Shown: piece after piece, positions 7,280-24,970 of the stretch
How the letters are laid out: each line of letters opens with the position of its first letter
Numbering within the stretch: the stretch's first letter is position 1
The notes under the pieces: generated by a model
The model's input: only the letters and a program-made list of their open reading frames with translations
Databases searched by the model: none
Told to the model about the DNA's origin: nothing
Assembly: GCA_022563855.1 (NCBI GenBank)
Contig: JADFMN010000014.1
Span: forward strand, 1-59,036
Reading direction: 5' to 3'
From: Armatimonadota bacterium
GTDB lineage: Bacteria > Armatimonadota > Fimbriimonadia > Fimbriimonadales > Fimbriimonadaceae
DNA: 59,036 nt
Translations under genes and position numbers: made by a program

Positions 7280-7660
7280 TCAGGAGTCCTCTTCGATCCG
7301 CTTGAGAATCTTCTTGAGTTCCTTTTCCTCGGCCTTGGTGAGCTTAACCTTCTTTTGAAGGAAGTGGACGAGTGGGGATACAGAGCCGTCGAGAACATCA
7401 GTGACGAGCCCCTCGATCATTTCTGACTGCAGCTCCTCATATGGCTTGACAGAGCGGTAGACGAACATACCGGACTCCTTGCGCCTCTTGAGAAACTTCT
7501 TCTTCCGCAGACGTTCCAACATCTGGGTGATCGTGCTTCTGGAGTAGCCTGCCTCCGACTCGAAGTGGCCGTATATCTCCCCAACGCTCAAACCGTCTGA
7601 CTGTGCGACGTGAGCGAGCAGTGCGAACTCCGCCTTGCCGACGGTCGGCTTCTTACGCAT
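7280..7660 (-). CDS. BlaI/MecI/CopY family transcriptional repressor
   Basis: 126 aa from the ATG at 7660 (MRKKPTVGKAEFALLAHVAQ). The winged helix covers residues about 5-75 (SVGEIYGHFESEAGYSRSTI, then QMLERLRKKKFLKRR), typical of BlaI/MecI. The C-terminal dimerisation helices (VHFLQKKVKLTKAEEKELKK) match the family in length. It starts 13 bp after the BlaR-like gene on the same strand. BlaI repressors are inactivated by proteolysis triggered by their partner membrane protease; here three palindromic sites nearby are candidate operators. Confidence 0.85.
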   Translation of the reverse strand: MRKKPTVGKAEFALLAHVAQSDGLSVGEIYGHFESEAGYSRSTITQMLERLRKKKFLKRRKESGMFVYRSVKPYEELQSEMIEGLVTDVLDGSVSPLVHFLQKKVKLTKAEEKELKKILKRIEEDS

Positions 7661-7673
7661 ATCTGATCTGATC

Positions 7674-9587
7674 TTACCGGGGGAAGATAGGCTTGAGCAG
7701 GACTGCGACCTCTTCTTCGCCGTCAGTGGCATCACAAGCAATGTACATATTGTCCGAGATCCCCCGAGCAAAAGTAAGCCAAAGCCCTTCAGGCACGTCA
7801 CAAAGGTCGTTGAGATCCATCACCCGTCTGTCGGGCGTCCATATGAGCGCTGTTCGCTCTTTGGCGTCAGAGTTCCAGCCGGAGCCCACCGAATACCCCT
7901 TGCTGTTAAGTGCAAACTGCCAAGAGTTCGCGAATAGGTTTGGCTGATCGTTGAGTACGACTTGGTCCGCTCCGAACCAAGTCGTGGGTAGGTGTCGACC
8001 GTCTTTCCAAGAATTGCCGACGATGACCCCGTCGTCAGATATCTCACTGACTGACATCGAGTCAGAGCCTTCGAGCATCGGCAACATCCTGATGGTTCCG
8101 TCCGGCTCCCATATCCAGGCCAAGTTCTTACTTGCGTTGAAGTAATTGTCCGAGAAGGTGCCTATAGTTGTACCGCTTGAGTTCACTGCAGACGCGTACG
8201 TGTGCGGGAGATCGCCCAACACGCTCGCCTCAAGCAGCTCCAGTCCCGTACTGGGGTGAAATCGGAACGCGGTGGGAACGTCACCGTCGAAGCGGCCAAC
8301 AACGTGCCCCTCTTCGCTCACGTCCCACGCATGGCCGTTGAGGCCTGTTATCTCGCTATAGTCGTCGCCTCCGCCGAACACTCCGATCCGCCTGATGTTT
8401 CCGCCAACTGCCAGTCCATCGTTGTTGACTCCGTTTACTTGACTGTCGAACCGTGTCGTCTGGATCTGTTTCAAGCCCTCCTCTTCGCTCCAGATAAACG
8501 GTGAGCGCCAGTTGTAATTGAGCGCGACCTCGCCTTTCTCGTTGACGTCCCACGCTGTCGATGGCCCAAGCTCTGCATTGCGGGGCAGAACTATGACCTC
8601 AAACCTGGGAAGACCCTTTGACTTCCTGTCGAACTCTGCCGTCGTCCTACCGATGAATTCAGGCGTTACTGGCTGAAGGATGAGGGTCAACGCGATCGGG
8701 GCAGCAGCCATCCAGCCGAGCTTTCCATTATTATTGCTAAACCGCCCGATGTTCACAAGTCGTTGCTTGAGGTCGCTGACGTGCGTCCTGCCGAACGCAA
8801 GACCGGCCGTCAGCGACGTTTGGCCTGTAGCAGATCGTGCGAGCAAGCCTGCGTAGTCGGACTTCTTACCGTCAAGAACTTGTAAAGCTGTATCGTCAGC
8901 AGCTTGTTCTGTGAAGAGCCGGTAGAGCCGCACCGCCCAATACAGCACAGGGTTCCAGGGCATTGAGGCAAGAGTCAGAAGCGGTAGCACGCTCCATAGC
9001 GGGTCGCGCCGCATGACGTGTGCCAGCTCGTGTGCCAGCACCTGTTGCCTGTCACCCGTGCCCTCTTCAAGCGAGTATCTTTCTGGTAGAACGATCGCCT
9101 GTCGCCACAGCCCTACCAGCGCAGGAGAATCGACCTGGTTCGAGACGACTACCCTCGGGATGTGCCAAGCTCCAACCTTCTCGGCGATCTCAGAGCACTC
9201 GCTGAGCCCATCACCTGCGATAGGAGAGCCGCTCGTTGCGAGCCTCTTAAGAATCGAGTTGATCCGGAGGTACTGCACTAGAACGTAGGCCGGCCCGAGA
9301 ATGATTAGGGCCGCAGTGACAAGGAAGAACACTTGTCCTGACTGTACGAGTGTGGCCGTGGATTCTCCAGCCGGCACCTCAGGCGCGAGGAAGATACCGA
9401 AAACGGCGAACACGACCGCCGATACCCAGAACTTGGCGAACGCGAATCGCAAGATCCAGACTTTCGTCGATGCCTTGATGGTGCGGGCGACGACCGTCAG
9501 CAGGCAGACGAGAAGGATCCAAAGGCTCCCTTCAACAAGAAGATGGAACCAAGGCAACAGCGCCTTGACGACCGCCGGACTCTCCAT
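7674..9587 (-). CDS. BlaR1-like M56 membrane metalloprotease with HAF-type repeat sensor domain
   Basis: 637 aa from the ATG at 9587; an upstream TTG at 9608 overlaps the operator and is not preferred. Residues 1-130 contain three membrane helices, then the M56 protease core with the zinc motif HELAH (in VLAHELAHVMRRDPLW) and the distal Glu in FTEQAADDTAL. A further helix near 300 leads outside the cytoplasm. The C-terminal half is not the penicillin-binding domain of BlaR1 but about six repeats of the form (I/V)N..G...G......A..W.....(HAF-like), ending ISDNMYIACD. It therefore keeps the signalling machinery but senses something else. It is the first gene of the blaR-blaI pair. Confidence 0.8.
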   Translation of the reverse strand: MESPAVVKALLPWFHLLVEGSLWILLVCLLTVVARTIKASTKVWILRFAFAKFWVSAVVFAVFGIFLAPEVPAGESTATLVQSGQVFFLVTAALIILGPAYVLVQYLRINSILKRLATSGSPIAGDGLSECSEIAEKVGAWHIPRVVVSNQVDSPALVGLWRQAIVLPERYSLEEGTGDRQQVLAHELAHVMRRDPLWSVLPLLTLASMPWNPVLYWAVRLYRLFTEQAADDTALQVLDGKKSDYAGLLARSATGQTSLTAGLAFGRTHVSDLKQRLVNIGRFSNNNGKLGWMAAAPIALTLILQPVTPEFIGRTTAEFDRKSKGLPRFEVIVLPRNAELGPSTAWDVNEKGEVALNYNWRSPFIWSEEEGLKQIQTTRFDSQVNGVNNDGLAVGGNIRRIGVFGGGDDYSEITGLNGHAWDVSEEGHVVGRFDGDVPTAFRFHPSTGLELLEASVLGDLPHTYASAVNSSGTTIGTFSDNYFNASKNLAWIWEPDGTIRMLPMLEGSDSMSVSEISDDGVIVGNSWKDGRHLPTTWFGADQVVLNDQPNLFANSWQFALNSKGYSVGSGWNSDAKERTALIWTPDRRVMDLNDLCDVPEGLWLTFARGISDNMYIACDATDGEEEVAVLLKPIFPR

Positions 9588-9603
9588 AACGTCCGAAGTA
9601 TAC

Positions 9604-9613
9604 GACAAGTGTC
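9604..9613 (-). promoter_or_regulatory. BlaI-type operator upstream of the BlaR-like gene
   Basis: The dyad GACAAGTGTC lies 17 bp before the ATG at 9587 and shares the GACAnnTGTC consensus with the two sites before the PD40 gene. It would let BlaI repress its own operon. Confidence 0.6.
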
Positions 9614-9630
9614 AACAAGAAGTCCCTTGC

Positions 9631-9702
9631 AAGGCTTCCTATATAACGAGGGGGGCGGTCTTATTCAAGACCCCGGGGTACCCCCCTTCGGTATGGGGTC
9701 GA
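9631..9702 (+). repeat. palindrome-rich direct repeat, right copy
   Basis: Counterpart of 5524-5595 in the same orientation, with the core AGACCCCGGGGTACCCCCC. In this copy GACCCC at the core can also pair with GGGGTC 20 bp downstream. It lies between the BlaR-like gene and the divergent ArdC-like gene; the rest of 9703-9914 holds no gene. Confidence 0.6.
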
Positions 9703-9914
9703 CTCTCCGACCCCGACAGCTCAGTTCTTCAAGTCATAAGGGAGATTATCGGTCCGCTACGCAAGGGCAAAGCCCTTCAACGATAATCTGGCCTTATAAC
9801 AGAAAACTGGGCTGTCTGACTCTGGAACTCTCGGCTTGTCTGACTGCCCCCCCTGTGTTTCCCTTGCTCAGCTCTTGCTCGAATGCACGCGAGCATCGCC
9901 TCGCAAGGAAAACA

Positions 9915-10676
9915 ATGAATACGAACGTACAACATACGATCGACTCGTCACTCAAACGGCTCTCCAGCGCCCTGGCGGCAGGACGCTCAGAGACGCTCAC
10001 CGACTACCTCAGGGCCATGGCGAGGTTCCACGACTACTCGTGGTTCAACGTCATGATGATCTTCACCCAGAGGCCTGAGGCTACGCGAGTCGCAGGCTAC
10101 AACACCTGGAAGAAGGTGGGTAGATGGGTTATGAGAGGGCAGAAGGGCATAGTCATCCTGGCTCCCCTTCTCAAGAAGGACGAAGAGGGTAACAGGGACC
10201 TTTATGGCTTCAAAGCTGTGCGGGTCTATGACATCAGGCAAACTGATGGCAGAAGTCTCCCAGAGTTCGACTCTGTCCATGGAGACCCAGGCCGCTTCAC
10301 CCAGTCTCTCGCAGCCCTTGCACACGACCAGGGTATCGAGGTCGAGTACGTCGATTCTCTTGGAGGACCAGACGGTGTCTCACAAGGAGGCAAAGTCATG
10401 GTGTGCAAGGACCTACCTGAGGGTGAACAGTTCGCTGTGCTTGCACACGAGCTGGCTCACGAGCTGATGCACCGAGGTGAACGCAAGGCGTCGAAGAAGA
10501 CCAAAGAGCTGGAAGCCGAGGCTGTCGCCTTCGTCGTCTGCTCTGTCCTCGGGCTCGACACCTACTCCAGGAGCAGGGACTACATTGGTCTCTATGGCGG
10601 CAGCGCTGAAGCCCTGGCCGACTCCCTCCAGCACATCCAGCAGACCGTGAAGTTCATGTTGTCTGCTGTGATCTGA
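9915..10676 (+). CDS. ArdC-like antirestriction/ImmA-IrrE-type zinc peptidase
   Basis: 253 aa from the ATG at 9915, preceded by AAGGAAAACA as ribosome-binding site. Residues 15-120 form the ArdC N-terminal (ssDNA-binding) domain, with YSWFNVMMIFTQRP, VAGYNTWKKVGRWV and GQKGIVILAP. Residues about 170-230 carry the zinc protease motif HELAHELMHRGE followed by ELEAEAVAFVV, the third ligand. ArdC proteins of conjugative elements protect incoming DNA from restriction. It supports a plasmid/ICE origin for this region. Transcribed away from the BlaR cassette and followed at once by a hairpin terminator. Confidence 0.8.
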   Translation: MNTNVQHTIDSSLKRLSSALAAGRSETLTDYLRAMARFHDYSWFNVMMIFTQRPEATRVAGYNTWKKVGRWVMRGQKGIVILAPLLKKDEEGNRDLYGFKAVRVYDIRQTDGRSLPEFDSVHGDPGRFTQSLAALAHDQGIEVEYVDSLGGPDGVSQGGKVMVCKDLPEGEQFAVLAHELAHELMHRGERKASKKTKELEAEAVAFVVCSVLGLDTYSRSRDYIGLYGGSAEALADSLQHIQQTVKFMLSAVI

Positions 10677-11056: not shown

Positions 11057-11751
11057 GCGACACTTGGCGGGATCTAGCAGTTGCAGTTGCGTCACGAATC
11101 GAATTCGAGCGCAGATGCGACCGACTCGGATTTGTGGACGAATTCACTGCCGTGCGATTTAGTGCAGAGTTTCTCGATTCTCAAAGGACAGGAAAGATTA
11201 GGACTGAAGAACCTCATCCAGACATCTCCAACAAGTTCATCGACCTGGTCAGAGAAACGAAACGAGGGAAACAACTTGACCTCGGCATGGAGGCGAAGTG
11301 GCTTCGTCCAACCGGAAGCACAAGGTCGTGGCTCAAAGAGCTTGCCGTCGATCTCTTTCGACTCCAGCATTTCAGAACCGGCACGAAGCAAGGCACGCAC
11401 CGTGTTCTACTCGTCGTGGGAACACACGACATGATTAAGGATAATATCTTTGACAGGAACGTCCAGACCGGCGGAGGGTCAAAGCGTGGCTTGCCCTTCA
11501 TCCTGCCAGAGAACCTCTCGACTACGTTTACTAAATTCGAAATCCGCAATTGCAGACCAGAGGCGCGGAAGTGGCTTCGATCCTGCAGGGTAAATCTTGG
11601 AGTCAATCTCCCATCGACGTACGATGCACGGCTTGCCGCCAGGCATGTTGCTGCATCAGACAACGATGCGATTGAAGCTGTCGTGTGGGTGACTCGTCGT
11701 AAACCAAGCTGGAAGTCGTTTGACGACAATAGGGCGTGGGGTGTGATTTGA
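11053..11751 (+). CDS. possible PD-(D/E)xK nuclease, first gene of ABC-3C operon
   Basis: 232 aa from the ATG at 11053. Residues about 50-90 contain EEPHPDI, then LDLGMEAKWLRP, where D-x3-E-A-K has the form of a PD-(D/E)xK nuclease active site. A strand RVLLVVGTHD follows. The overall family is not one I recognise, so nuclease is inference from the motif. The stop codon overlaps a TTG start of the next gene (TTGA), and the gene is codirectional with the three ABC-3C genes, so it probably works with them as an extra effector or regulator. Confidence 0.6.
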   Translation: MSDTWRDLAVAVASRIEFERRCDRLGFVDEFTAVRFSAEFLDSQRTGKIRTEEPHPDISNKFIDLVRETKRGKQLDLGMEAKWLRPTGSTRSWLKELAVDLFRLQHFRTGTKQGTHRVLLVVGTHDMIKDNIFDRNVQTGGGSKRGLPFILPENLSTTFTKFEIRNCRPEARKWLRSCRVNLGVNLPSTYDARLAARHVAASDNDAIEAVVWVTRRKPSWKSFDDNRAWGVI

Positions 11752-12830
11752 GCAATACAGTGCCCATGCCAGAACCGCCAGCACCCGCAGCCGTTTCCGC
11801 AGATACGGCCATGATGGGGCCGCCAATCCTGCCCATCAAGCGGATCAAGCTGTACAGCAGCGAGCAATGGGAAGAATTAGTTCTTGAATGGGCAAATGGG
11901 GCGGCCGCGAAATATGACCGGGTTGAACGGTGTGGCGGTGCTGGTGACATGGGGCGCGATGTCATCGGGTTCCCGGAGAAAGACAATCACGATTTATGGG
12001 ACAACTACCAATGCAAGCACTATGACCATCCGTTGCACCCCTCTGACATTTGGCTAGAACTCGGGAAGCTCGTGTACTACGCTCATCGAGGCGAGTTCAC
12101 GTATCCGCGAGCATACTCGTTTGTCGCTCCACAGGGCGCTGGTACAGCACTTGCGAATCTGCTAAGAAAACCTGAAGAACTGCGCCGCGGCCTCATCACG
12201 AATTGGGACAGGAAGTGCAAGGAGGGAATCACTTCGACTGGAGAGGTCAAGCTTGAAGGAGATCTTCGTGCCTACTTGGATGGACTAGATTTTTCTATCT
12301 TCAGCTACATTCCACCTCTTCAGTTGGTAACGGAGCATCGCGAGACCTCATGGCATCTGGCGAGGTTTGGAGGAGCCCTACCGGAGCGGCAAGAGGCTCA
12401 GGATCCTCCAGCCACTCCAGAAGCTAACGAAGTCGTCTATCTTCGCAAGTTGTTCGCTGCGTACTCCGAACACCTTGAACGTGAAGTACTTGAGCATTCA
12501 GACATTGCCGATGAAGAAGGAATCGACGGTCACTATCAGGACTCTCGCATAGAGTTCTACAGTGCCGAGTCCTTGCGAAGCCTATCTAGGGACTCGTTGC
12601 CAGTGGGTGAATACGAGAAACTTCAAGATGAGGTTCACCACGGGGTGCGCGATGAGATTAGAAGAGATCACGTTGACGGATTTGAATGCGTCCGCTTAGT
12701 GGTGAAGGCTTCGAGGGAACTGCAACTGACTTCGCACGCTTTGCTTCCGCGCATGAATATCAAAGATCGTGGAGGAATCTGCCATCAGCTAGCGAATGAT
12801 CGAAACGACGTAGTGTGGGTGAAGCCATGA
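11748..12830 (+). CDS. ABC-3C system effector with restriction-endonuclease-like N-terminus
   Basis: About 360 aa. Start chosen at TTG 11748 because it forms a 4-base TTGA overlap and gives Met-Ser, as in the ATPase gene; GTG 11736 and ATG 11766 are alternatives. Residues about 40-100 are an Mrr/PD-(D/E)xK-type fold: EQWEELVLEWANG, GDMGRDVIGF, then QCKHY as the catalytic Q-x-K strand, and DIWLELGKLVYYA. The remaining helical part resembles ABC-3C C-terminal domains. In this class the effector attacks nucleic acid when the associated ATPase senses invasion. Followed by an ATGA overlap with the middle component. Confidence 0.75.
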   Translation: MSNTVPMPEPPAPAAVSADTAMMGPPILPIKRIKLYSSEQWEELVLEWANGAAAKYDRVERCGGAGDMGRDVIGFPEKDNHDLWDNYQCKHYDHPLHPSDIWLELGKLVYYAHRGEFTYPRAYSFVAPQGAGTALANLLRKPEELRRGLITNWDRKCKEGITSTGEVKLEGDLRAYLDGLDFSIFSYIPPLQLVTEHRETSWHLARFGGALPERQEAQDPPATPEANEVVYLRKLFAAYSEHLEREVLEHSDIADEEGIDGHYQDSRIEFYSAESLRSLSRDSLPVGEYEKLQDEVHHGVRDEIRRDHVDGFECVRLVVKASRELQLTSHALLPRMNIKDRGGICHQLANDRNDVVWVKP

Positions 12831-13333
12831 GGATTGCTGAGGAGCGGTTCATTGACCCCTTCAACGGGCCGGTCGAAATTGGGCTCCGCACGCTTGCAAT
12901 CCTCAACGATGCATTTCCCAATGAGTACTCATTGCAGCGATTAGTCGTCTTCGATTACTTGCTTGTACACTCTGACGACATTCCTGAAGGTCCTATAGGT
13001 CTTCACCCCAAGACGCCGCACCGGAGCGGCGAGCTTCTAGTGCGTAGGAAGTCTCTGCGTCAAGGCTTGTATCTCCTTATGAGCCGAGGCCTCGTTCAAC
13101 AGCGTTATCAACCAAAAGGAGTGTTCTTTGCCGGAACGGATCATACGGGTGCGTTCTTGGACACTTTAGGGTCGGCATATGTCATCGGACTGCGAGATCG
13201 CGCAGAGTGGGTAGTAAGCACGTTCGGCCCAATGTCCGATAGCGAACTGGATCTCCTTGTTCAAGAAAACCTAGGTGAATGGGGAGCGGAGTTTGAATTG
13301 GAATCAGTCCTTTGGTTGGAGGAAACGGTTTGA
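12827..13333 (+). CDS. ABC-three-component system middle component (MC2-like)
   Basis: 168 aa from the ATG at 12827, inside the ATGA overlap with the effector. The signature is clear: a FNGPVEIGLRTLAIL opening, QRLVVFDYLLVHSDD, then PIGLHPKTPHRSGELLVRR and KGVFFAGTDHTGAFL. This matches the ABC-3C middle component 2 family, a predicted winged-helix-like adaptor between effector and ATPase. No signal peptide. The stop overlaps the TTG of the ATPase gene. Confidence 0.8.
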   Translation: MRIAEERFIDPFNGPVEIGLRTLAILNDAFPNEYSLQRLVVFDYLLVHSDDIPEGPIGLHPKTPHRSGELLVRRKSLRQGLYLLMSRGLVQQRYQPKGVFFAGTDHTGAFLDTLGSAYVIGLRDRAEWVVSTFGPMSDSELDLLVQENLGEWGAEFELESVLWLEETV

Positions 13334-15174
13334 GCAAGTTTGGCTTCCACCTCGTCCGACTTGCACTAACGGGATCAGATGTCGAAGATGCCGAAGTCCG
13401 ATTCACGAATGGCTTGAACGTAATAACGGGCCCGTCAGACACGGGAAAGACATTTATTCTTCAGTGCATCGATTTCATGCTTGGTGCCAGTGTTACTCCT
13501 GAAGAAGTGCCTGAGGTAGCAAAATACGACACCGTTATACTAGACATTAAGAAGAATTCTGATAGTGAAGTAATTTCACTCAGCCGAAGTTTACAGGGAG
13601 GCGAATTCCGACTCCTACGTCCCGGTCAAGATGAGCTCTCGCTACGTCCAAAGCATGATCCAAAGCGTGAAGACACACTTTCTCACCTGCTGTTGGAAAT
13701 CACTGGACTATTGGGCAAAGAGGTTCGAAAGAACCAGCATGGCGTGACTCGGCAACTGAGTTTTAGGGACTTGGCACATTTGTCCATCGTCTCAGAAGAA
13801 GAGGTGATCCGCTCGACGTCTCCTGTACTTACGGGTCAGGTCGTCAACGCAACTGTGGAGAAGTCGGTGTTTCGACTACTACTATCGGGCAATGACGATT
13901 CTGCCGTCGTTGCATCTGAGGAGCCCAAGCTATCGCGTGCCCGAACTGAAGCCAAAGTCGAAGTAGTCCAGGAGCTCGTTGAACAAACACGCGAGCAAAT
14001 TGAGAAGCTGGAGACTGTCTCTGATCTCTCATCTCTTCAAAATCAGCTTGCTCAATCGGAAGCTGCATATGACGAGGCTTTGATTGAGTTGAGCTCTGCT
14101 CAGGAATCGGTTTCGGATATAGAACAAAGGCGTCGAGGTATTTGGGAGCAACTACGGGCGGACGAGTCCCGACTAGACGTCCTGACCGGACTTGCAGAAC
14201 GATTCGCGCTACTAAGACAACAGTATTTATCGGATCTCCGACGCCTGGAAGCTATTGCAGAAACAGGGAAACTCTTGGCTGAGATGACAATAGAACGCTG
14301 CCCGATATGCGGGGCACTCGCAGAGCACCATGACACAGAGCATCAGGAGGAACAGACAGACCCTGTAGTCGTTGCGGAAGCAACAGCCGCAGAAGCAAAT
14401 CGTATTCGATCGCTCATCGACGATCTAGACTCAACACGAAATGAAGTTAGTCGTGAGGGAAGTGAATTAGAAGCAAGAAGAAGGGATGTTAGGGGTGAAT
14501 TAGCAGCGGTTGGACAAGAATTTCAAGAGACTCTCAAGCCGCGAATGAAGGAAGCACTAAGTCACTTTCGACGCAATCAGGAGGAACGCGAAGGTGTCCG
14601 CCAAGCGATAAGCCTAATAGAAAGACTTGTTGAACTGGAAGAACTCGTTGAAGAGGTAGAGGCCAAACCAAAGACTGTGTCAAGCAATCTTCAAAGCGGA
14701 GAGATACGAGCAAGTGAATACGAGGGATTTTGTGCCGAAGTTGAGGTTAGATTACGAGCATGGAACTTCCCGGGCCTGACTCGGGTGACTTTTAGCGAAA
14801 GCGACTGGGACGTCGTCATATCTGGACGCAGGCGGACGAGTCATGGAAAAGGCGTCAGGGCGGTCACACACGCGGCCTTTACCTTTGCCCTGCTTCGATA
14901 CTGTGTAACCAGAGAACTGCCACATCCTGGATTCGTTGTGATCGACTCACCGCTGGTTGTGTACAGAGAGCCCGACGCAGACGAAGGCGAATTTAGCCAT
15001 GATGTACAAGCCTCGTTCTTTAGAGACCTCGCTGTTGCATTTGGCGACGAACAGCTGATCGTGCTTGAAAACGAAAGCCCTCCTCAGGATCTCGATGACA
15101 GTCCGGATGTGAATGTGATTCGTTTCACAGGTACATCAAGCGGGCGCGGCGGCTTCATTCCTTCGAATGATTAA
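13330..15174 (+). CDS. ABC-3C system ATPase (SMC/RecN-like)
   Basis: 614 aa from TTG 13330 (reads MSKFGFHLVRL). Walker A is GPSDTGKT (about residue 35). A long coiled coil (about 200-470) holds a zinc-hook-like CPICG near residue 320. The C-terminus has the Walker B strand GFVVIDSPLVVY and a final IRFTGTSSG strand. SMC-like ATPases of ABC-3C systems are thought to sense foreign DNA or DNA ends and license the effector. The start shares the TTTGAGCAA context of the effector start, so all four genes are tightly coupled. It closes the operon. Confidence 0.8.
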   Translation: MSKFGFHLVRLALTGSDVEDAEVRFTNGLNVITGPSDTGKTFILQCIDFMLGASVTPEEVPEVAKYDTVILDIKKNSDSEVISLSRSLQGGEFRLLRPGQDELSLRPKHDPKREDTLSHLLLEITGLLGKEVRKNQHGVTRQLSFRDLAHLSIVSEEEVIRSTSPVLTGQVVNATVEKSVFRLLLSGNDDSAVVASEEPKLSRARTEAKVEVVQELVEQTREQIEKLETVSDLSSLQNQLAQSEAAYDEALIELSSAQESVSDIEQRRRGIWEQLRADESRLDVLTGLAERFALLRQQYLSDLRRLEAIAETGKLLAEMTIERCPICGALAEHHDTEHQEEQTDPVVVAEATAAEANRIRSLIDDLDSTRNEVSREGSELEARRRDVRGELAAVGQEFQETLKPRMKEALSHFRRNQEEREGVRQAISLIERLVELEELVEEVEAKPKTVSSNLQSGEIRASEYEGFCAEVEVRLRAWNFPGLTRVTFSESDWDVVISGRRRTSHGKGVRAVTHAAFTFALLRYCVTRELPHPGFVVIDSPLVVYREPDADEGEFSHDVQASFFRDLAVAFGDEQLIVLENESPPQDLDDSPDVNVIRFTGTSSGRGGFIPSND

Positions 15175-15407
15175 ATGTCGGAGTGTTTTGGCCAGAAGCA
15201 GAGACAATACTCCGATCTGACAGGGTGATGCAGACATGGAGTTCTACTTAAATTGAAATCAGTCTATGGCGCGCAATCGTGACAAGGTGATGGCATTCTG
15301 AGAAGTCTATCAAAAGAGGCACGCAGCTACCAACGCCCAAGCCTTCGTGGGTAGCCTGATTGGAGTTGTCGTACTACACATGTACGTACGCGGCAGCAAG
15401 GAGACAG

Positions 15408-16952
15408 ATGAACGATTGGATCTACGCGTCTGAACTCTACAACTGGACGAACGGAGACCAGTTGCTCGACTGGCTCGACATGTTCGGCCTGGAGAGCGGC
15501 TATGCTAAGGACGAGGAGGACGAAAACTACATCGAGGAAGCAGACCTCAGCGTTTTCACTCGCAGCAAAGGAAACGAGTTTGAAGACCGAGTGCTCGATC
15601 TCATTCGTGATCGCTTCGATGTTCAGGTCGTTGATGGCGCACGTGGGAATCACGACTCTGTCTACGAGCAGACGACTCGGCTGATTCAGCAAGGTCAGGA
15701 GATAATCTACCAGGGTCTTGTCAGAGACGACGAAAGGAGGGTCTTCGGAGTTCCGGATCTTATCGTCCGAGGGGATGCGATGGATCAGCTCGTGCCGGGA
15801 TCGCTCGACGGAGATGCAGACACTTACTACGTCGTCGATATCAAGTACAAGGGTCTTGGGCTGAACAAGAAGGGTGACTTGAGTTCGAAGCACAACTGGG
15901 AGAAGGTTCAGCTCGCTTTGTACGAAGGCGCACTTGCAAAGATGCTCAATCGCGACCTCGCTCGGTCTTACATCCTTGGGCGTTCTGCAGGCAACGGTTC
16001 AGTTAGCTGTTTCGACGCTCTTGGTTGGGCGAAGCCAGGTGATCCGAGGACTCTTGTGAATGTCGAAGAGGGCCTGCAGTGGATCCGTGATCTGCGAGAA
16101 CACGGCAAGGATTGGACGCTGGATCCTCCCAGCGATCCACGACTAGCTCCAAACACGAAGAGCAAGAACAGTGGTGATTGGAAAGGTGTCTTCGAGGCGT
16201 TGACGGCGAGCGAGGATCGTGAAGTGGATGAAGTGCCTCCTGTCTCGCCAGCACACATATCCGCCAACCGTGCTGACTGGATCGAGAACTTAGGGATCGA
16301 ATTCTACGTCGACTTCGAAACCCTGAACAGTCTGAACGACGACTTCACCAAGCTACCGAACATGAACGGCAAGCCGATGATTTTCATGATCGGATGTGGC
16401 CACGAAGAGAACAGTGATTTCGTCTTCAAAGTTTGGACGATGGAAGAGGAGACCTACGAAGAAGAGAAGCGAATCATCGAGGAGTGGCTGGCATACATGG
16501 AGGAGACGAGAAAACGGCTTGCTTCGAATATCGAGCAGCCGCACATCTTCCACTGGTTCCGCCACGAGCCTGGCGAGCTTGGCAAAGCAGCCGACCGCCA
16601 CGATCAGCCTCAGTGGAAGGACGTCCCTTGGTACGACTTGCTGAAGAAATTGATGAAGGAAGAACCTGTTATGGTTCGAGGCACGCAGGGTCACAGCCTC
16701 AAACCAATAACGCGTTCGATGGAGAGCATGGGCCTAATCGAGACCGTCTGGGCTGAGAGCCAAGTCTCCGGCGGAACAGAAGCCATGACCGCAGCTTGGT
16801 GGTGCTACGAACAAGTCATGAAAACAGGTGTCCCAGTGCGAGAAGCCGCACTCGACGGCCGAGACCCGCTCATGCCAGAAGTCGAGAGCTACAACGAAGT
16901 CGATTGCAAGGCGATGTGGGAGATCTTGCACTACTTGCGTTCCAATCATTGA
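15408..16952 (+). CDS. TM0106-type RecB-like nuclease with RNase H-fold domain
   Basis: 514 aa from the ATG at 15408, which has the good ribosome-binding site AAGGAG; an earlier TTG at 15360 is rejected. The N-terminal half is a Cas4/RecB-like PD-(D/E)xK domain, with RSKGNEFEDRVLDLI, GVPDLIVRG and YYVVDIKYKGLG (D-x-K strand). The C-terminal half is RNase H-like: IEFYVDFETLN (first acidic pair), HWFRHEP, and YNEVDCKAMWEIL at the end. This two-nuclease architecture is that of TM0106 family putative nucleases. It stands 230 bp after the ABC-3C ATPase; the gap has no gene. Inferred role: DNA degradation in defence. Confidence 0.75.
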   Translation: MNDWIYASELYNWTNGDQLLDWLDMFGLESGYAKDEEDENYIEEADLSVFTRSKGNEFEDRVLDLIRDRFDVQVVDGARGNHDSVYEQTTRLIQQGQEIIYQGLVRDDERRVFGVPDLIVRGDAMDQLVPGSLDGDADTYYVVDIKYKGLGLNKKGDLSSKHNWEKVQLALYEGALAKMLNRDLARSYILGRSAGNGSVSCFDALGWAKPGDPRTLVNVEEGLQWIRDLREHGKDWTLDPPSDPRLAPNTKSKNSGDWKGVFEALTASEDREVDEVPPVSPAHISANRADWIENLGIEFYVDFETLNSLNDDFTKLPNMNGKPMIFMIGCGHEENSDFVFKVWTMEEETYEEEKRIIEEWLAYMEETRKRLASNIEQPHIFHWFRHEPGELGKAADRHDQPQWKDVPWYDLLKKLMKEEPVMVRGTQGHSLKPITRSMESMGLIETVWAESQVSGGTEAMTAAWWCYEQVMKTGVPVREAALDGRDPLMPEVESYNEVDCKAMWEILHYLRSNH

Positions 16953-17169: not shown

Positions 17170-17634
17170 ATGAACGCAAATATGGGCAGAAAAGCGAAGG
17201 ACAGCAAATCAAACGCCAACCTTGGCTTCGAGGCCAAACTCTGGCTGGCCGCAGACAAGCTCCGCAACAACATGGATGCGGCGGAGTACAAGCACGTCGT
17301 GTTAGGACTGATCTTCCTTAAGTTCATCTCTGACAGCTTCGAAGAAGAACACGCCAAGCTCATTGAAGGCAAGGGCCAATACGAAGGCGCACACCCGGAA
17401 GACCAAGACGAGTACAACGCTGAGAACGTCTTCTGGGTGCCGAAAGAGGCGCATTGGGCATTCATCCAAGATAACGCGATCCAGTTCACGATCTGCATGA
17501 CGGTCGATGACGCCATAGTCGCCATCGAGCGCGACAACCCACGGCTGAAAGGCGCCCTGCCAAAAGAGTACGCACGTCCCGCGCTGGACAAGCACCGACT
17601 AGGTGAACTCCTTAGCAGTAAAATAACACACTAA
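17170..17634 (+). pseudogene. hsdM: hsdM N-terminal remnant (type I restriction methylase)
   Basis: 154 codons matching the highly conserved HsdM N-terminal helical domain: [64 protein letters not shown] and [13 protein letters not shown] complete HsdM is about 500 aa and carries the methylase motifs (NPPF) downstream; here the frame ends abruptly after LGELL with SSKITH and a stop, and an unrelated ATPase gene begins 5 bp later. The homologous part breaks exactly at the start of the conserved L-I-D segment, so the rest was replaced by insertion or recombination. It cannot methylate. Confidence 0.8.
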
Positions 17635-17639
17635 AACAA

Positions 17640-19229
17640 ATGAGAATTTCATCAATCAAACTTAAAAACTTCAAGCGTTTCAGTGATCTTGAGATTTCTG
17701 ACATCCCTGAATCTGCCAAACTCGTAGTAGTCGTTGGCCCAAATGGTTGCGGGAAGTCATCGCTATTTGACGCCTTAATCCACTGGTATCATCGCAGTGT
17801 TGGATTTGGATACAATCAGGACTTAGCGTACTATCAAAAGAGCCAGGCGACAGCATTCGATTGGAACCAGTCAGTAAGCGTTACACTGCACGGCGACGCC
17901 CAACCGCACAAAGGGATGCTGAACATCCGGACAGCCTATCGAAACGACCCCGACTTTTCCGTTGACGGAATTAACCGCCCGGACGATCCGTCTGAGCGAC
18001 CTCGCATACAGCGCTCGATTGAAAACGATCAGACTGTATCTGACAATTATCGTCGACTCATATACGACACCATGTCGGGGGTCTATTCTGAGGAAAACAA
18101 TAACAAGACAATTCAGGAATTAAGAGGTGAGCTTATAGGTGGCATCCGGGAGTCGATGCAACGAGTTTTCGAGGACTTGATTCTGAACAACATCTCCGAT
18201 CCACTCGGAGCAGGCGCGTTTTACTTTAAAAAGGGCGAAGTGCAATCGTTTCACTATAAGAATCTATCAGGTGGAGAGAAGGCCGCTTTTGACCTGATTC
18301 TTGACCTGCACATTAAGAAGCGATATTTCTCAAATACGGTGTACTGCGTCGATGAGCTGGATACGCATCTGCACACGAGGATTCAAGGAAAGCTGCTGAA
18401 GGAGATGGTGAACATTTTGCCCGATGAGTGTCAGTTGTGGGTTACCACTCACTCCTTAGGGGTACTCCGCGCAGCGCAGGAGATGATAGTCGCAAATCCT
18501 GATTCTGTCACTTTGATTGATTTCGAAGGTGTCGATCTGGATGTTCCTCGAAAGCTGTTACCAAGCAACCTAGATCGGGTTGCCTGGGAGAAGTTCCTGT
18601 CCATCACGCTTGACGATCTATCGCAGCGAATCGCACCCAGAGTCGTGATTGTCTGCGAGGGGTCGACAGTTGGAACGCGAAGGAAGGATTACGACGCTGA
18701 GATATACAACAGAATTCTAGGCGCAAGGCATGCTGAAACAATTTTCGTCTCCGGTGGCTCGGCTGACCAGGTTCTAGCAAATGCTGTCTCTGTACGGGAG
18801 GCATTGGGACGGATTTTGCCAAACTCCCGGTTCGTTGCACTAGCTGACAGAGATGACAAGTCGCCGGCGCAAGTCATTGAGTTCGAGAACGCTGGTGGAT
18901 TCGTCCTAGGTCAACGCAATCTTGAGTCTTATCTATTCGCAGATGACGTGATAGAAGCGTTGGTGAAAGATGTCGGAAAAGAGGACAAGTTAGCTGAGGC
19001 TCTACAAATCAAACGGGACAAGCTAGCTGCTAGTACGGCAAGAGGCAATTCTGCCGACGATTTGAAGTCTGCTAGCGGAGATATATATGTTGAGCTGAAG
19101 CGACTGCTTGATCTTCAGCGTTGCGGAAATGACAAAGATGCTTTCATGAGAGACACTCTTGCGCCACTTATCGCACCGCCTATGACGACGTACTCTGATC
19201 TTGAAGCAGCGATCATCACGAGATTGTAA
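17640..19229 (+). CDS. AAA ATPase-TOPRIM/DUF4435 fusion, PARIS-like or OLD-like defence protein
   Basis: 529 aa. The N-terminal AAA_15/21-type ATPase has VVVVGPNGCGKSS (Walker A, about 28-41), an ABC-like signature LSGGEKAAFDL, Walker B VYCVDELDTHLH and the His-switch LWVTTHSLGVL. From residue 330 a TOPRIM-like part follows: VVIVCEGST (catalytic Glu), SGGSADQV, FVALADRDDKS (D-x-D) and RNLESYLF, typical of DUF4435. That combination is the fused form of AriA-AriB (PARIS, which responds to anti-restriction proteins); OLD-family nucleases are the main alternative. It directly replaces the 3' part of hsdM. G+C is visibly lower than in the core genes. Confidence 0.7.
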   Translation: MRISSIKLKNFKRFSDLEISDIPESAKLVVVVGPNGCGKSSLFDALIHWYHRSVGFGYNQDLAYYQKSQATAFDWNQSVSVTLHGDAQPHKGMLNIRTAYRNDPDFSVDGINRPDDPSERPRIQRSIENDQTVSDNYRRLIYDTMSGVYSEENNNKTIQELRGELIGGIRESMQRVFEDLILNNISDPLGAGAFYFKKGEVQSFHYKNLSGGEKAAFDLILDLHIKKRYFSNTVYCVDELDTHLHTRIQGKLLKEMVNILPDECQLWVTTHSLGVLRAAQEMIVANPDSVTLIDFEGVDLDVPRKLLPSNLDRVAWEKFLSITLDDLSQRIAPRVVIVCEGSTVGTRRKDYDAEIYNRILGARHAETIFVSGGSADQVLANAVSVREALGRILPNSRFVALADRDDKSPAQVIEFENAGGFVLGQRNLESYLFADDVIEALVKDVGKEDKLAEALQIKRDKLAASTARGNSADDLKSASGDIYVELKRLLDLQRCGNDKDAFMRDTLAPLIAPPMTTYSDLEAAIITRL

Positions 19230-19495: not shown

Positions 19496-20869
19496 TCAGC
19501 GGTCTGGTTTTTTGATCCGACTCCATGCAGATACAGCCAGAATAACGGCAATAATCGCGATCGATATCGCCGCAGGAAGAAGAGTCATTATTAAATTGTC
19601 AAATAGTCCATTCAGGAAGAGGTAAGCATAAACCATAGATGCAACAATCAGTCCAAAGGCACAGGCCTTGTCATTGATTCCATGTTCCCTGCCTATGGAG
19701 GCAACTATTAGCACAGGCACAAGAACGGTCGCCAAGGTCACCGCACCAAATAGGAATTGAATGATGTCGGTGATGGTGAGTGCCAGGAGTGCCAGAGCTA
19801 TCATTGTTACGACAATTACAGCACGCAACTTCCGTTCTGTTGCGGGATCGTCGGTTTTTGACTCAGGTCGGAACTGACCAACTATAGTAGAACTGAATAG
19901 AAATACCTGGGAGTCTAGAGTAGACATAATCGATGCCGCAACAAACACTCCGATCAGAGCAACAACAAAAGAGGGCATTACACCGACTGTAAAGAGAGCG
20001 AAGAACGCATCCTGTCCTTCAACTTCTGGTCCTACTGCAGTCGCCACAACCGAGGAAAATAGTACCAAACCAATCGATATTAGAACATACATAGGCATCG
20101 ACCAATGGAGTCCGGATCTTCCATCGCGTCCCGAACGCGCGGAAAAGATCAATTGCCATAGGTCGGAGGAGGAGAGGGTTACTAACAGACTTAGGCCCAC
20201 GAAGGCTACGATCACCATTGCGCCCGGACTCATGAAAGATTCTAACGATGGAATTGGCCACCCACTCGGTTGCGCTATCCAGGGTAAGAGTACTATGAGC
20301 ATAATGATAAACCACTGAAACACACCAGTCCTAACGCTCGTAGCAAATCCGCCTAACGAGAGATACAATCCAACAATCACTATCGTCAGAATCACACCAA
20401 ATACAACATGCGTTCCGAAGAGCGACGCAAACACTGAACCTGCAATGTTTACCTGAACCGCACCGTATAGAAAGGCTGTTGCAGCAATAATGATAGATGA
20501 CACACGTTCTGTCAGAGGCCCAACTCGGTCGCGGATCATCTGGTTGACGCTGAAATAGTCCTTATCTGCTGCTAATTTCCGTATCCTGGGGGCAAGCCAA
20601 CCAAGAACGAACAATCCTATACACAACCCTAGCGTTAGCCATAACGCACCGAACCCAAAATAGATTCCTAGTACTATCCACGCAGCGACGCCGGCACCAT
20701 CCCGGAGATTTCCTACTACAGATGCCATGATTGGAAACGAACTGACGTCACGTTTTCCAATTGCAAAGCTCGGAGCGTTGTGCGATCTCCAATCGCGTAC
20801 GGCTAAAAATATAATAACTGCCACGTACGCAGCCAATACAGTAAGTGTCAATCCAAAGTCAGTCATCAA
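19496..20869 (-). CDS. sodium:solute symporter family (SSS) transporter, operon with two unknowns
   Basis: 457 aa, almost entirely membrane helices (about 13). Family features: LAAYVAVIIFLAVRDWRS, then ASVVGNLRDGAGVAAWIVLG in the first core helices, FVGLSLLVTLSSSDLWQLIFSAR, and FVAASIMSTLDSQVFLFSS in the Na+-site helix region (usually A-x-x-S-T/S-D-S). SSS proteins co-transport Na+ with sugars, amino acids or acetate, and some serve as sensors. The substrate is unknown. It is the last gene of a three-gene minus-strand operon, 9 bp after the preceding stop. Base composition is AT-richer than in the core genes. Confidence 0.75.
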   Translation of the reverse strand: MMTDFGLTLTVLAAYVAVIIFLAVRDWRSHNAPSFAIGKRDVSSFPIMASVVGNLRDGAGVAAWIVLGIYFGFGALWLTLGLCIGLFVLGWLAPRIRKLAADKDYFSVNQMIRDRVGPLTERVSSIIIAATAFLYGAVQVNIAGSVFASLFGTHVVFGVILTIVIVGLYLSLGGFATSVRTGVFQWFIIMLIVLLPWIAQPSGWPIPSLESFMSPGAMVIVAFVGLSLLVTLSSSDLWQLIFSARSGRDGRSGLHWSMPMYVLISIGLVLFSSVVATAVGPEVEGQDAFFALFTVGVMPSFVVALIGVFVAASIMSTLDSQVFLFSSTIVGQFRPESKTDDPATERKLRAVIVVTMIALALLALTITDIIQFLFGAVTLATVLVPVLIVASIGREHGINDKACAFGLIVASMVYAYLFLNGLFDNLIMTLLPAAISIAIIAVILAVSAWSRIKKPDR

Positions 20870-20878
20870 CTTTCTCTG

Positions 20879-22633
20879 TCACTGATCCCGCCGGCTCGAT
20901 CTCTTGATATCTTCAATCACCAAGCCCTCCACCGATTCGAATTCGCCTGTTGAGTGAGAATAATCAGGTCCAGTAGGGAGTAATTCTACACTACCAACTT
21001 TCATAATCTGTGCAAATCGACTATCCCACTTTTGTTTCCTCGTATCATATAGTGCTTTCTGGACGGATGCCTCGATTAGTCGCCGATATGAACTGTCAGC
21101 TGACGGCACGAAATAGCCAACATCAAGAGGATGATCAAATTCAGCCGGTATGACGGTTATTGATGCCTTTTCAAGATCTCTTATGATTTTTGCTGTGATT
21201 GTGTCGACAATGACAAGAATCCGATGCTCGGACTCTGGAACATTCAAATCGTTCGCATGACGAAGTAATAAACCGAGATCCTGTACATCACTGACGGCTG
21301 TATATGGGGCTTTGAAAAGAGGTGCCCATTGAAGCACTTTCGGATCGTGTAAGTGTATCATCGCTATGACAGAAACTTCTTCTTCGGCTATAGCGGTAAG
21401 TTCTTCTTGAATCGCACTCGATGGTTGCGATATGAGCTTGAAGTTATGCCTAATGCAGAAGCGAAGAACATTGCTAATAAGTGTTGGATCCGGTTCCAAT
21501 CTAAAAGCGTTCCTCACTTCCGCGATATGTCTTTTTGGAACAATGACACTTACCTTTCTAATCACTCCAACGGTCACCATCGAGCCCCTGCGAAGGCGTT
21601 TAGCTGACGCAAAGGCGGGTTCCATTTGAATCATCTCTCCGTCGAAAACGTCATCGATCAAGGAATCGAATGAGACTAGCGGCAGGCGAGCCTCAATCAA
21701 ATTGAACCGATCAGAAATGCTCCTTGGAGATATGATGTCTTGAAGGCCGTCGACCATCGCCTGAACATAATCTTTAATGGGTTTGGGGGTATCTGGAAAC
21801 GTATGACTTCCTGAATAGTAGCCCGTGTAAATATACTTCACTGTTCCTTTACTGTCAATAATGTTTCTAACTAATGTATTTAGCTTTCGGGTTGATGAGA
21901 ATGATCGGCCAAAGTCGTCAAAGAACTTTTTGTCTTCTAGAATGAACTTTAGAGCGGCTGATGCGTAAGGCTGGGCTTCTTGTATGATTGAGCGTATATC
22001 ATCGGCTTCCTGTCGACTTAGGTGGCTAATGATTGTCTTGGCTGTACTCGTGATGGTCAGAGAATCCACACCATGCGTAAGATTCGATAGAAGTCTCAAT
22101 GCTTCTAGAGGCGCAGCGTTGCTGAGGCTGATGGCAATAATCGGTATAAATTCTGGTGTTTCGCGCGCATCGATGCGTGACCAGTCGAACTGTGAGGAGC
22201 TGTTCGCGCTTAGAGCGGCCAACGCGGCACAGCGGAGAGAGATATCATAGGATGTATTGTTTACAATGTTGGCTAAGATACTGGTGTCGCACGTGAAAGG
22301 AATGTACTCAGCCAAAAAGAGAGCGTTTTCGAGGACTGAGGCATCGGTATCCTCTTGTAGAGAACGGATGACCCGGGTTAGGGCATCTGATGCGAGCATC
22401 TTTGTCTGTTCACTAAGATTGCGGAATAGGCTAGCGGCGTTCGTTACAAGCTCTGCTGGTCTCGCAACAATCAATTCTAGGGCAGTTGGATCTTCGCCGC
22501 AAATGTCATACAGAAGGTGCTCCCAGTCGAGACCGTCGAGTGATCGAAGGTGGGCAAGCGTAGCCTCGCTGTCCTGTCGGATATCCTTAAGGCGCGACTG
22601 AGACACGCCTTTGAGATAGCTGTGATCCTTCAT
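20879..22633 (-). CDS. unknown protein with helical-repeat N-terminus
   Basis: 584 aa, no signal peptide or membrane helix. Residues about 20-260 are helical with repeat-like spacing (LRSLDGLDWEHLLYDICGED, LAEYIPFTCDTSILANIVNN, ALRLLSNLTHG), suggesting HEAT-like repeats. The C-terminal 300 residues are mixed alpha/beta (RRGSMVTVGVIRKVSVIV, RILVIVDTITAKIIRDLEKA). The start overlaps the upstream gene by ATGA, so the two are stoichiometrically linked. I recognise no family. The neighbourhood is a defence island. Confidence 0.6.
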   Translation of the reverse strand: MKDHSYLKGVSQSRLKDIRQDSEATLAHLRSLDGLDWEHLLYDICGEDPTALELIVARPAELVTNAASLFRNLSEQTKMLASDALTRVIRSLQEDTDASVLENALFLAEYIPFTCDTSILANIVNNTSYDISLRCAALAALSANSSSQFDWSRIDARETPEFIPIIAISLSNAAPLEALRLLSNLTHGVDSLTITSTAKTIISHLSRQEADDIRSIIQEAQPYASAALKFILEDKKFFDDFGRSFSSTRKLNTLVRNIIDSKGTVKYIYTGYYSGSHTFPDTPKPIKDYVQAMVDGLQDIISPRSISDRFNLIEARLPLVSFDSLIDDVFDGEMIQMEPAFASAKRLRRGSMVTVGVIRKVSVIVPKRHIAEVRNAFRLEPDPTLISNVLRFCIRHNFKLISQPSSAIQEELTAIAEEEVSVIAMIHLHDPKVLQWAPLFKAPYTAVSDVQDLGLLLRHANDLNVPESEHRILVIVDTITAKIIRDLEKASITVIPAEFDHPLDVGYFVPSADSSYRRLIEASVQKALYDTRKQKWDSRFAQIMKVGSVELLPTGPDYSHSTGEFESVEGLVIEDIKRSSRRDQ

Positions 22634-23496
22634 GGCAAAGATTTTACTGGTAAGAGAAGCGCAGAGAACGGTATAGGCTCATGGAGGGCTTCTGGATGCG
22701 AAACTGGCTGTGCCAGGACTGGCTTGCGTCTGCCTTTGGCCATGTCCTCATGCCAGGGTCGTGTACGCCCATACCAAGGGTACGTGCTTGGTGGTGGCTG
22801 AAAGTATTCATAGAGGCCTGCATCGGCGATTGTCGGACGGTATAGTTCCTTTAGATTCTCAACACGGTATTCTAGCAAAAGGATATCACCTAAACTTTGT
22901 CCATCCAGACCCATTCCAGCCCGAACCTCATCCGCAATGTTCTGAGTCAGCCATGAGAATGGACTTGAGTTAGCGACCTCATGCCAGGTCACCCAAGTGC
23001 CGAAACTGCTCATCAGGAGATTCTTAGCGTCTTCTTCCATTTTGCCGCTCACAAGGTCCGAAACGAAGAGACGGGCGTGAGCTGGTGAGGAAAAGTATTT
23101 AAAATATGGAGCGTGTTTCGCGCTTTGGCCATAAGCATTATACAACTCTACGATAAGTTTCTCCCGATTGATGGCCCGTCCGACAACAGTCGGTGATGGC
23201 AAGTCGTTTGGTGTGCGTATCAAGCCTCCCTTTAATGTCATTGTGTAGCATTTCGATTCATATGTCTCGGCCACCTCATTAACGGGCTCATTCTTTACGG
23301 TCAGGAGATGTTCTACGAGATCCCTCATCAAGCGCGGTGGAAGGAAATGCTCTCCATTTACAACATTCGACACGACGAATCGACCGATGCCGCTTGTGGC
23401 ATCGGCCAGCCAACGATTGAGCACCAAAGTGACGGCATCTCTAGTGGCCGCGTCTGGCATGAGATCTAGCGCTCCCTGAAATGACGTTCCTGCCAT
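22630..23496 (-). CDS. unknown protein, first gene of the symporter operon
   Basis: 288 aa, soluble. Conserved-looking patches include GIGRFVVSNVVNGEHFLPPR, SFGTWVTWHEVANSSPFSWL and a C-terminal Pro/Tyr/Trp-rich stretch (STYPWYGRTRPWHEDMA). The short last part is Pro-rich and may be an interaction tail. Family unknown. It starts the minus-strand operon, 75 bp from a tRNA-Glu remnant that marks the island edge, and overlaps the next gene by 4 bases. Confidence 0.6.
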   Translation of the reverse strand: MAGTSFQGALDLMPDAATRDAVTLVLNRWLADATSGIGRFVVSNVVNGEHFLPPRLMRDLVEHLLTVKNEPVNEVAETYESKCYTMTLKGGLIRTPNDLPSPTVVGRAINREKLIVELYNAYGQSAKHAPYFKYFSSPAHARLFVSDLVSGKMEEDAKNLLMSSFGTWVTWHEVANSSPFSWLTQNIADEVRAGMGLDGQSLGDILLLEYRVENLKELYRPTIADAGLYEYFQPPPSTYPWYGRTRPWHEDMAKGRRKPVLAQPVSHPEALHEPIPFSALLLPVKSLP

Positions 23497-23570: not shown

Positions 23571-23620
23571 GTCGCCCTTTCACGGCGGGGATCGTGGGTT
23601 CGAATCCCGTCCGGGGTACC
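23571..23620 (+). other. tRNA-Glu(TTC) 3'-part remnant, att-like scar
   Basis: The anticodon arm TCGCC-CTTTCAC-GGCGG (anticodon TTC), variable loop, T-arm GTGGGTTCGAATCCCGT and 3' acceptor strand CCGGGGTACC are present, but no D-arm or 5' acceptor strand precedes them. A 3' tRNA fragment is the usual product of tyrosine-integrase insertion into a tRNA gene. Confidence 0.7.
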
Positions 23621-23823
23621 TAAGTCCATTGTTAGAAACGCCCACGATTTGAGCAATCAAAGCCCGCCACTGATAGATGCCGAGAAACGGCATGCGCCTA
23701 GCGTCACAGGATTAACCGTCGCTTCTAGTTGACATACTGTATGACATACTCGGTACGGCGATCTGGGGTGTTTTGTGGGGTTCTGAGGACGCAATTTGAA
23801 CCTAACGAACCATGTCCACCCAA

Positions 23824-23868
23824 TTTGCAAGCAGGGGGTCACGGGTTCGAATCCCGTAGCCTCCACCA
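23824..23868 (+). other. tRNA-Ala(TGC) 3'-half remnant, att-like scar
   Basis: It begins exactly at the anticodon loop TTTGCAA and runs GCAGGGGGTC, T-arm CGGGTTCGAATCCCG, acceptor TAGCCTCC and ACCA. The bases before it (CCCAA) cannot pair as the 5' anticodon stem. The breakpoint in the anticodon loop is the classic crossover site of tyrosine integrases. Between the Glu scar and this one no intact gene is visible; the frame on the minus strand here is a translated tRNA artefact. Confidence 0.7.
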
Positions 23869-24014
23869 TTTCTCCCTCAGGTCGCGACGCTCGCTTCGGT
23901 GACACACGTTGCTGACACGGGCTTCGCTAACACTGCGCAATCTACAAAGTGACGATCGGTGCGACAGCCTAGCGCAAGCGCGACAAGCGAGGCGCATACT
24001 GGCACCCTAGTTGA

Positions 24015-24926: not shown

Positions 24927-24970
24927 CTGGCAGGCAGGGCGTCACGGGGTCGATTCCCGTAGCCTCCACC
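24927..24970 (+). other. degenerate tRNA-Ala(GGC) 3'-half remnant
   Basis: CTGGCAG anticodon loop (GGC), 3' stem GCAGG, T-arm ACGGGGTCGATTCCCGT and acceptor AGCCTCCACC. The T-loop has GTC for the usual TTC and the 5' stem is absent, so it is decayed. The acceptor strand is identical to that of the Ala(TGC) scar. Confidence 0.6.

Follow-up and report, generated by a model that had tools for sequence, protein, structure and literature searches.

Organization of the locus

The operon p1-p2-p3 was examined within a window of 59,036 nucleotides, the whole stretch of DNA that was analysed (Table 1). As the earlier note had described, and as was seen in both the ORFs and the sequence, its three genes lie on one strand. 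The end of p1, the first gene, and the start of p2 share the bases ATGA (a 4-base overlap), and 9 bases separate the p2 stop from the first possible start of p3, a TTG at 20869. The next codon is an ATG (20866), which is preceded by a Shine-Dalgarno-like stretch (GAGAAAG) and appears to be the more plausible start. No promoter-like site for the operon rose above background.

Table 1. Features of the operon, the tRNA scars and the neighbouring genes (positions in the window)
Feature	Position	Strand	Size or remark	Basis
Lamassu LmuA with CTD6	11736-12830	plus		PADLOC/Pfam profile match
Lamassu LmuC / MC2 middle component	12815-13333	plus		profile match
Lamassu LmuB	13312-15174	plus		PADLOC/Pfam profile match
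HsdM, N-terminal domain only	17170-17634	plus	154 aa	HsdM_N, 2.6e-23
AAA ATPase, SMC/OLD/PtuA type	17640-19229	plus	529 aa	AAA_15/AAA_21/SMC_N matches
p3	19496-20866 (ATG) or 19496-20869 (TTG)	minus	456 aa (ATG) or 457 aa (TTG)	SSF match
p2	20879-22633	minus	584 aa	ORF list
p1	22630-23496	minus	288 aa; first gene of the operon	ORF list
tRNA-Glu(TTC) 3' half, attachment-site scar	23573-23620	plus	48 bases	95.8% identical to intact tRNA-Glu, contig C9
Second tRNA 3'-end scar	23844-23867	plus	acceptor end ...AGCCTCCACC	
Near copy of second scar	24947-24970	plus	right edge of low-GC region	

The claim that the operon is AT-richer than the core was borne out, GC contents ranging from 0.47 to 0.51 in the three genes against 0.55-0.63 in genes lying beyond 33 kb. 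Compared with the same genes, the difference was also apparent at third codon positions (GC3 of 0.50, 0.46 and 0.45 in p1, p2 and p3, respectively, versus 0.66-0.82) and in codon adaptation to the core (0.41-0.47 versus 0.58-0.75). In all three, GC1 was the highest of the codon positions, which is the composition of real genes. Thus, p1, p2 and p3 are real genes with a foreign composition.

The tRNA scars mentioned in the earlier note were recovered as well: the 3' half of a tRNA-Glu(TTC), located upstream of p1 at a distance of 77 bases, and another scar type that occurs in two copies. Composition turned to the core value close to the right-hand copy of the latter, and the first 25 kb of the window form a lower-GC variable region. 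Since the window begins at base 1 of its contig (C14), the left border of the island lies outside the view. No intact tRNA was detected in the window by ARAGORN, no integrase was identified within it, and the assembly yielded no intact tRNA that could be the parent of the second scar. These surroundings look like those of a hot spot for tRNA-linked integration, because integrases targeting tRNA genes are known to behave in this manner. A minus-strand ORF at 23657-23905, which contains MVEATGFEPVTPCLQ, looks like a spurious translation across a tRNA remnant rather than a gene.

The island had been regarded as a defence island, and a complete Lamassu (ABC-3C) operon indeed spans positions 11736-15174. 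The best PADLOC models of its LmuA and LmuB were the same as those of an E. coli plasmid locus situated beside a retron. Closer to p3 comes an HsdM fragment, identified by its domain content as a truncated type I methylase, which stops 6 bases before the ATPase gene. The latter is encoded on the plus strand and is therefore convergent with the operon, of which it is no member. It had been announced as an AAA-TOPRIM gene: the ATPase part was supported by profile matches, while the C-terminal half matched no family but, on inspection of the sequence, reads like a Toprim domain (VVIVCEG). Three further loci were observed in this region, namely a BlaI/BlaR1-type repressor and M56 metalloprotease pair (7280-9608, minus), a gene whose product begins with an anti-restriction domain (ArdC N-terminal) and weakly matches an M78 metallopeptidase (9543-10676, plus) and, directly downstream of Lamassu, a gene for a protein of 530 aa whose RNase_H_2 match stayed below threshold (15360-16952, plus).

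Proteins encoded by the operon

Proteins p1 and p2 had been described as soluble and of no recognised family. Both parts of this description held: neither displayed hydrophobic segments in a hydropathy scan, and neither matched a family in Pfam, NCBIfam, PADLOC or PHROGs, or a PDB entry above noise. A match of p2 to PRK13679 (E 0.029) was ignored, being far below the cut-off of that model. Profile searches revealed no kinase, receiver, STAC or HTH domain in either protein, nor did p1 or p2 resemble any enzyme or regulator that would suit a metabolic operon. As judged from their sequences, they are two protein families described in no library searched.

Structure prediction, which the earlier note had put forward, gave a weak signal for one part of p2. 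In single-sequence AF2 models, residues 31 to 210 (approximately) formed a helical-repeat-like region with block pLDDT values of 50-78, whereas the remainder of p2 stayed below 50, with a mixed alpha/beta C-terminal part of very low confidence. The p1 model was largely helical, likewise of very low confidence (pLDDT 36.9). Structure searches with p2 returned generic ARM/HEAT solenoids, of which even the best Z, 8.5, lay within noise for helical repeats, and ARM/HEAT-like repeats are thus only weakly predicted for its N-terminal part. These models were too poor for naming a fold for p1 or for the C-terminal half of p2.

Protein p3 was more readily classified, as the earlier note had anticipated in calling it an SSS symporter. 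It matched the Pfam SSF profile (PF00474) with 52.7 bits (E 4.2e-14; cut-off 22.8), and a simple hydropathy scan revealed about 12 hydrophobic segments along its 457 aa, in keeping with an SSS core of at least 10 transmembrane helices. The Met-Ser-Thr (MST) motif of the sodium site is kept, its Ser-Thr pair (S316-T317) being invariant when p3 is aligned with one protein annotated as PutP and a further member of the SSS family; in PutP this pair binds sodium. As a lone query p3 matched no solved SSS structure, while a profile built from p3 and two SSS relatives matched SGLT, NIS, CHT1 and other solved structures of the family. The profile match and the MST motif are shared with the SSS family (SLC5, including PutP, SGLT and NIS). 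Yet p3 differs from it in its low identity to the nearest fetched sequences (only 24-31%), in ending soon after the core and in sitting behind two orphan soluble genes. These features identify p3 as a divergent SSS-family sodium/solute symporter, which still looks capable of transport and shows no sign of having become a channel.

Distribution in other genomes

At E 0.001, no relative was found outside the genome of origin for p2 among 291 genomes of the phylum, nor for p1 among 201 of them. A relaxed search with both proteins (E 1, 291 genomes) yielded matches that looked like chance, and none of the fetched p2-match loci carried p1 above noise. The two strongest candidates for p1 were inspected and rejected. 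One, in genome G073 (E 4.9e-5, a per-genome value), was a reading frame on the strand opposite a thioredoxin-like gene. The other covered 59 residues of a SpoIIM-family membrane protein of genome G001 (E 0.001), whereas p1 has no membrane segments; the match is also unremarkable since this E value is per genome and 291 genomes were searched.

Neither p1 nor p2 had a relative among 72,556 plasmids (E 1e-5) or 50,697 phage records. A similarity between p2 and the LmuB proteins of two E. coli plasmids, one of them with a retron beside it, was attributed to chance (E 1 and 4): the alignment covered 96 residues at 28% identity, and p1 displayed no similarity to the partners of LmuB. Pattern scans of viral contigs brought up no close relative of either p1 or p2, and those of 84,980 species genomes none of p2, distant relatives being able to escape such scans. 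Degenerate-pattern scans with hand-altered versions of p3, or of the three joined proteins, confirmed no relative either; the altered copies served only to widen the search patterns.

Matches to p3 occurred in 16 of the 201 genomes, including its own, and all others were remote; the neighbourhoods of four such relatives in other genomes lacked p1 and p2. From these observations, together with the lack of p1 and p2 relatives, the operon appears to be rare, and, as no relatives of p1 or p2 were found, the evidence for a three-gene unit comes from a single genome. The right-flank gene was considered as a marker of empty sites in related genomes but belongs to a paralogue-rich family unfit for synteny.

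Possible functions of the operon

Our tentative preference, held at somewhat less than an even chance, is that the operon is a horizontally acquired three-gene transcription unit, the end cargo of a tRNA-linked island, in which p1 and p2 partner a sodium-coupled importer. The overlap and close spacing of the genes, their common low GC3 and codon adaptation, and the tRNA scars all favour an acquired unit. Because its sodium-site Ser-Thr pair is kept, p3 would probably be a sodium-coupled importer of a small solute. Proteins p1 and p2 may be cytosolic partners working on or with it, p2 perhaps as an ARM/HEAT-type scaffold, and might either control p3 or handle its substrate. The slight lean to solute uptake comes from the kept sodium site and from the usual role of SSS proteins as importers of nutrients or osmolytes. 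Against this reading count the single known instance of the unit and the lack of a promoter-like site above background, and also that orphan, narrowly spread proteins in a defence-rich island also have the look of a conflict system, which two proteins of narrow distribution without an enzyme or regulator fold would fit equally well. For the present, the operon illustrates the kind of orphan cargo found throughout tRNA-linked islands.

The operon may instead act against phages, given the genes around it. The operon adjoins Lamassu, the SMC/OLD/PtuA-type ATPase and the type I methylase fragment, its composition is foreign, and the families of p1 and p2 are absent from every library searched. Such a new anti-phage system, in which p1 and p2 would detect infection and then force the SSS protein open or block it, the flux of sodium or solute harming the infected cell, nevertheless seems rather unlikely. 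In the version of the earlier note, p3 might depolarise the membrane. The argument is in essence one of location: none of the three proteins had a PADLOC-DB 2.0.0 match up to E 0.01, no collection searched contained a second instance, and no paper linking symporters with defence islands was found in a mainly non-subscription literature. Moreover, p3 appears competent for transport and not converted to a channel. Like Lamassu and other ABC-three-component systems, p1-p2-p3 is a compact three-gene operon, and it shares the island with one; yet it has no SMC-type ATPase, LmuA/LmuC or ABC-3C domain, and Lamassu forms a separate operon. Membrane-effector abortive infection systems (CBASS, retron, Pycsar and RexAB types) likewise combine soluble genes with a multi-pass membrane protein, but p1-p2-p3 has no nucleotide cyclase, reverse transcriptase or known sensor, and p3 is a secondary transporter instead of a small pore former. 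We know of no precedent for a secondary transporter as an immune effector. That an SSS symporter serves as a killing or starving effector, gated by two soluble proteins not described before, is an improbable proposal; if true, it would tie membrane energetics to immunity.

SSS domains also act as sensors in sensor kinases such as CbrA, and by analogy p3 could be the receptor of a solute-sensing module formed with p1 and p2. This established role and the compact operon with its soluble partners speak for such a module, which we consider very unlikely given that p1 and p2 lack the kinase, receiver, STAC or HTH domains named above. Finally, the locus might comprise two unrelated cargo items side by side, a translationally coupled p1-p2 pair and a symporter gene. 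The p1-p2 overlap is tight where p2 and p3 are merely separated by a short gap, and no second instance of all three travelling together was encountered. We nonetheless regard this arrangement as improbable, since the gap measures only 9-12 bases and the three genes share one strand and a similar composition.
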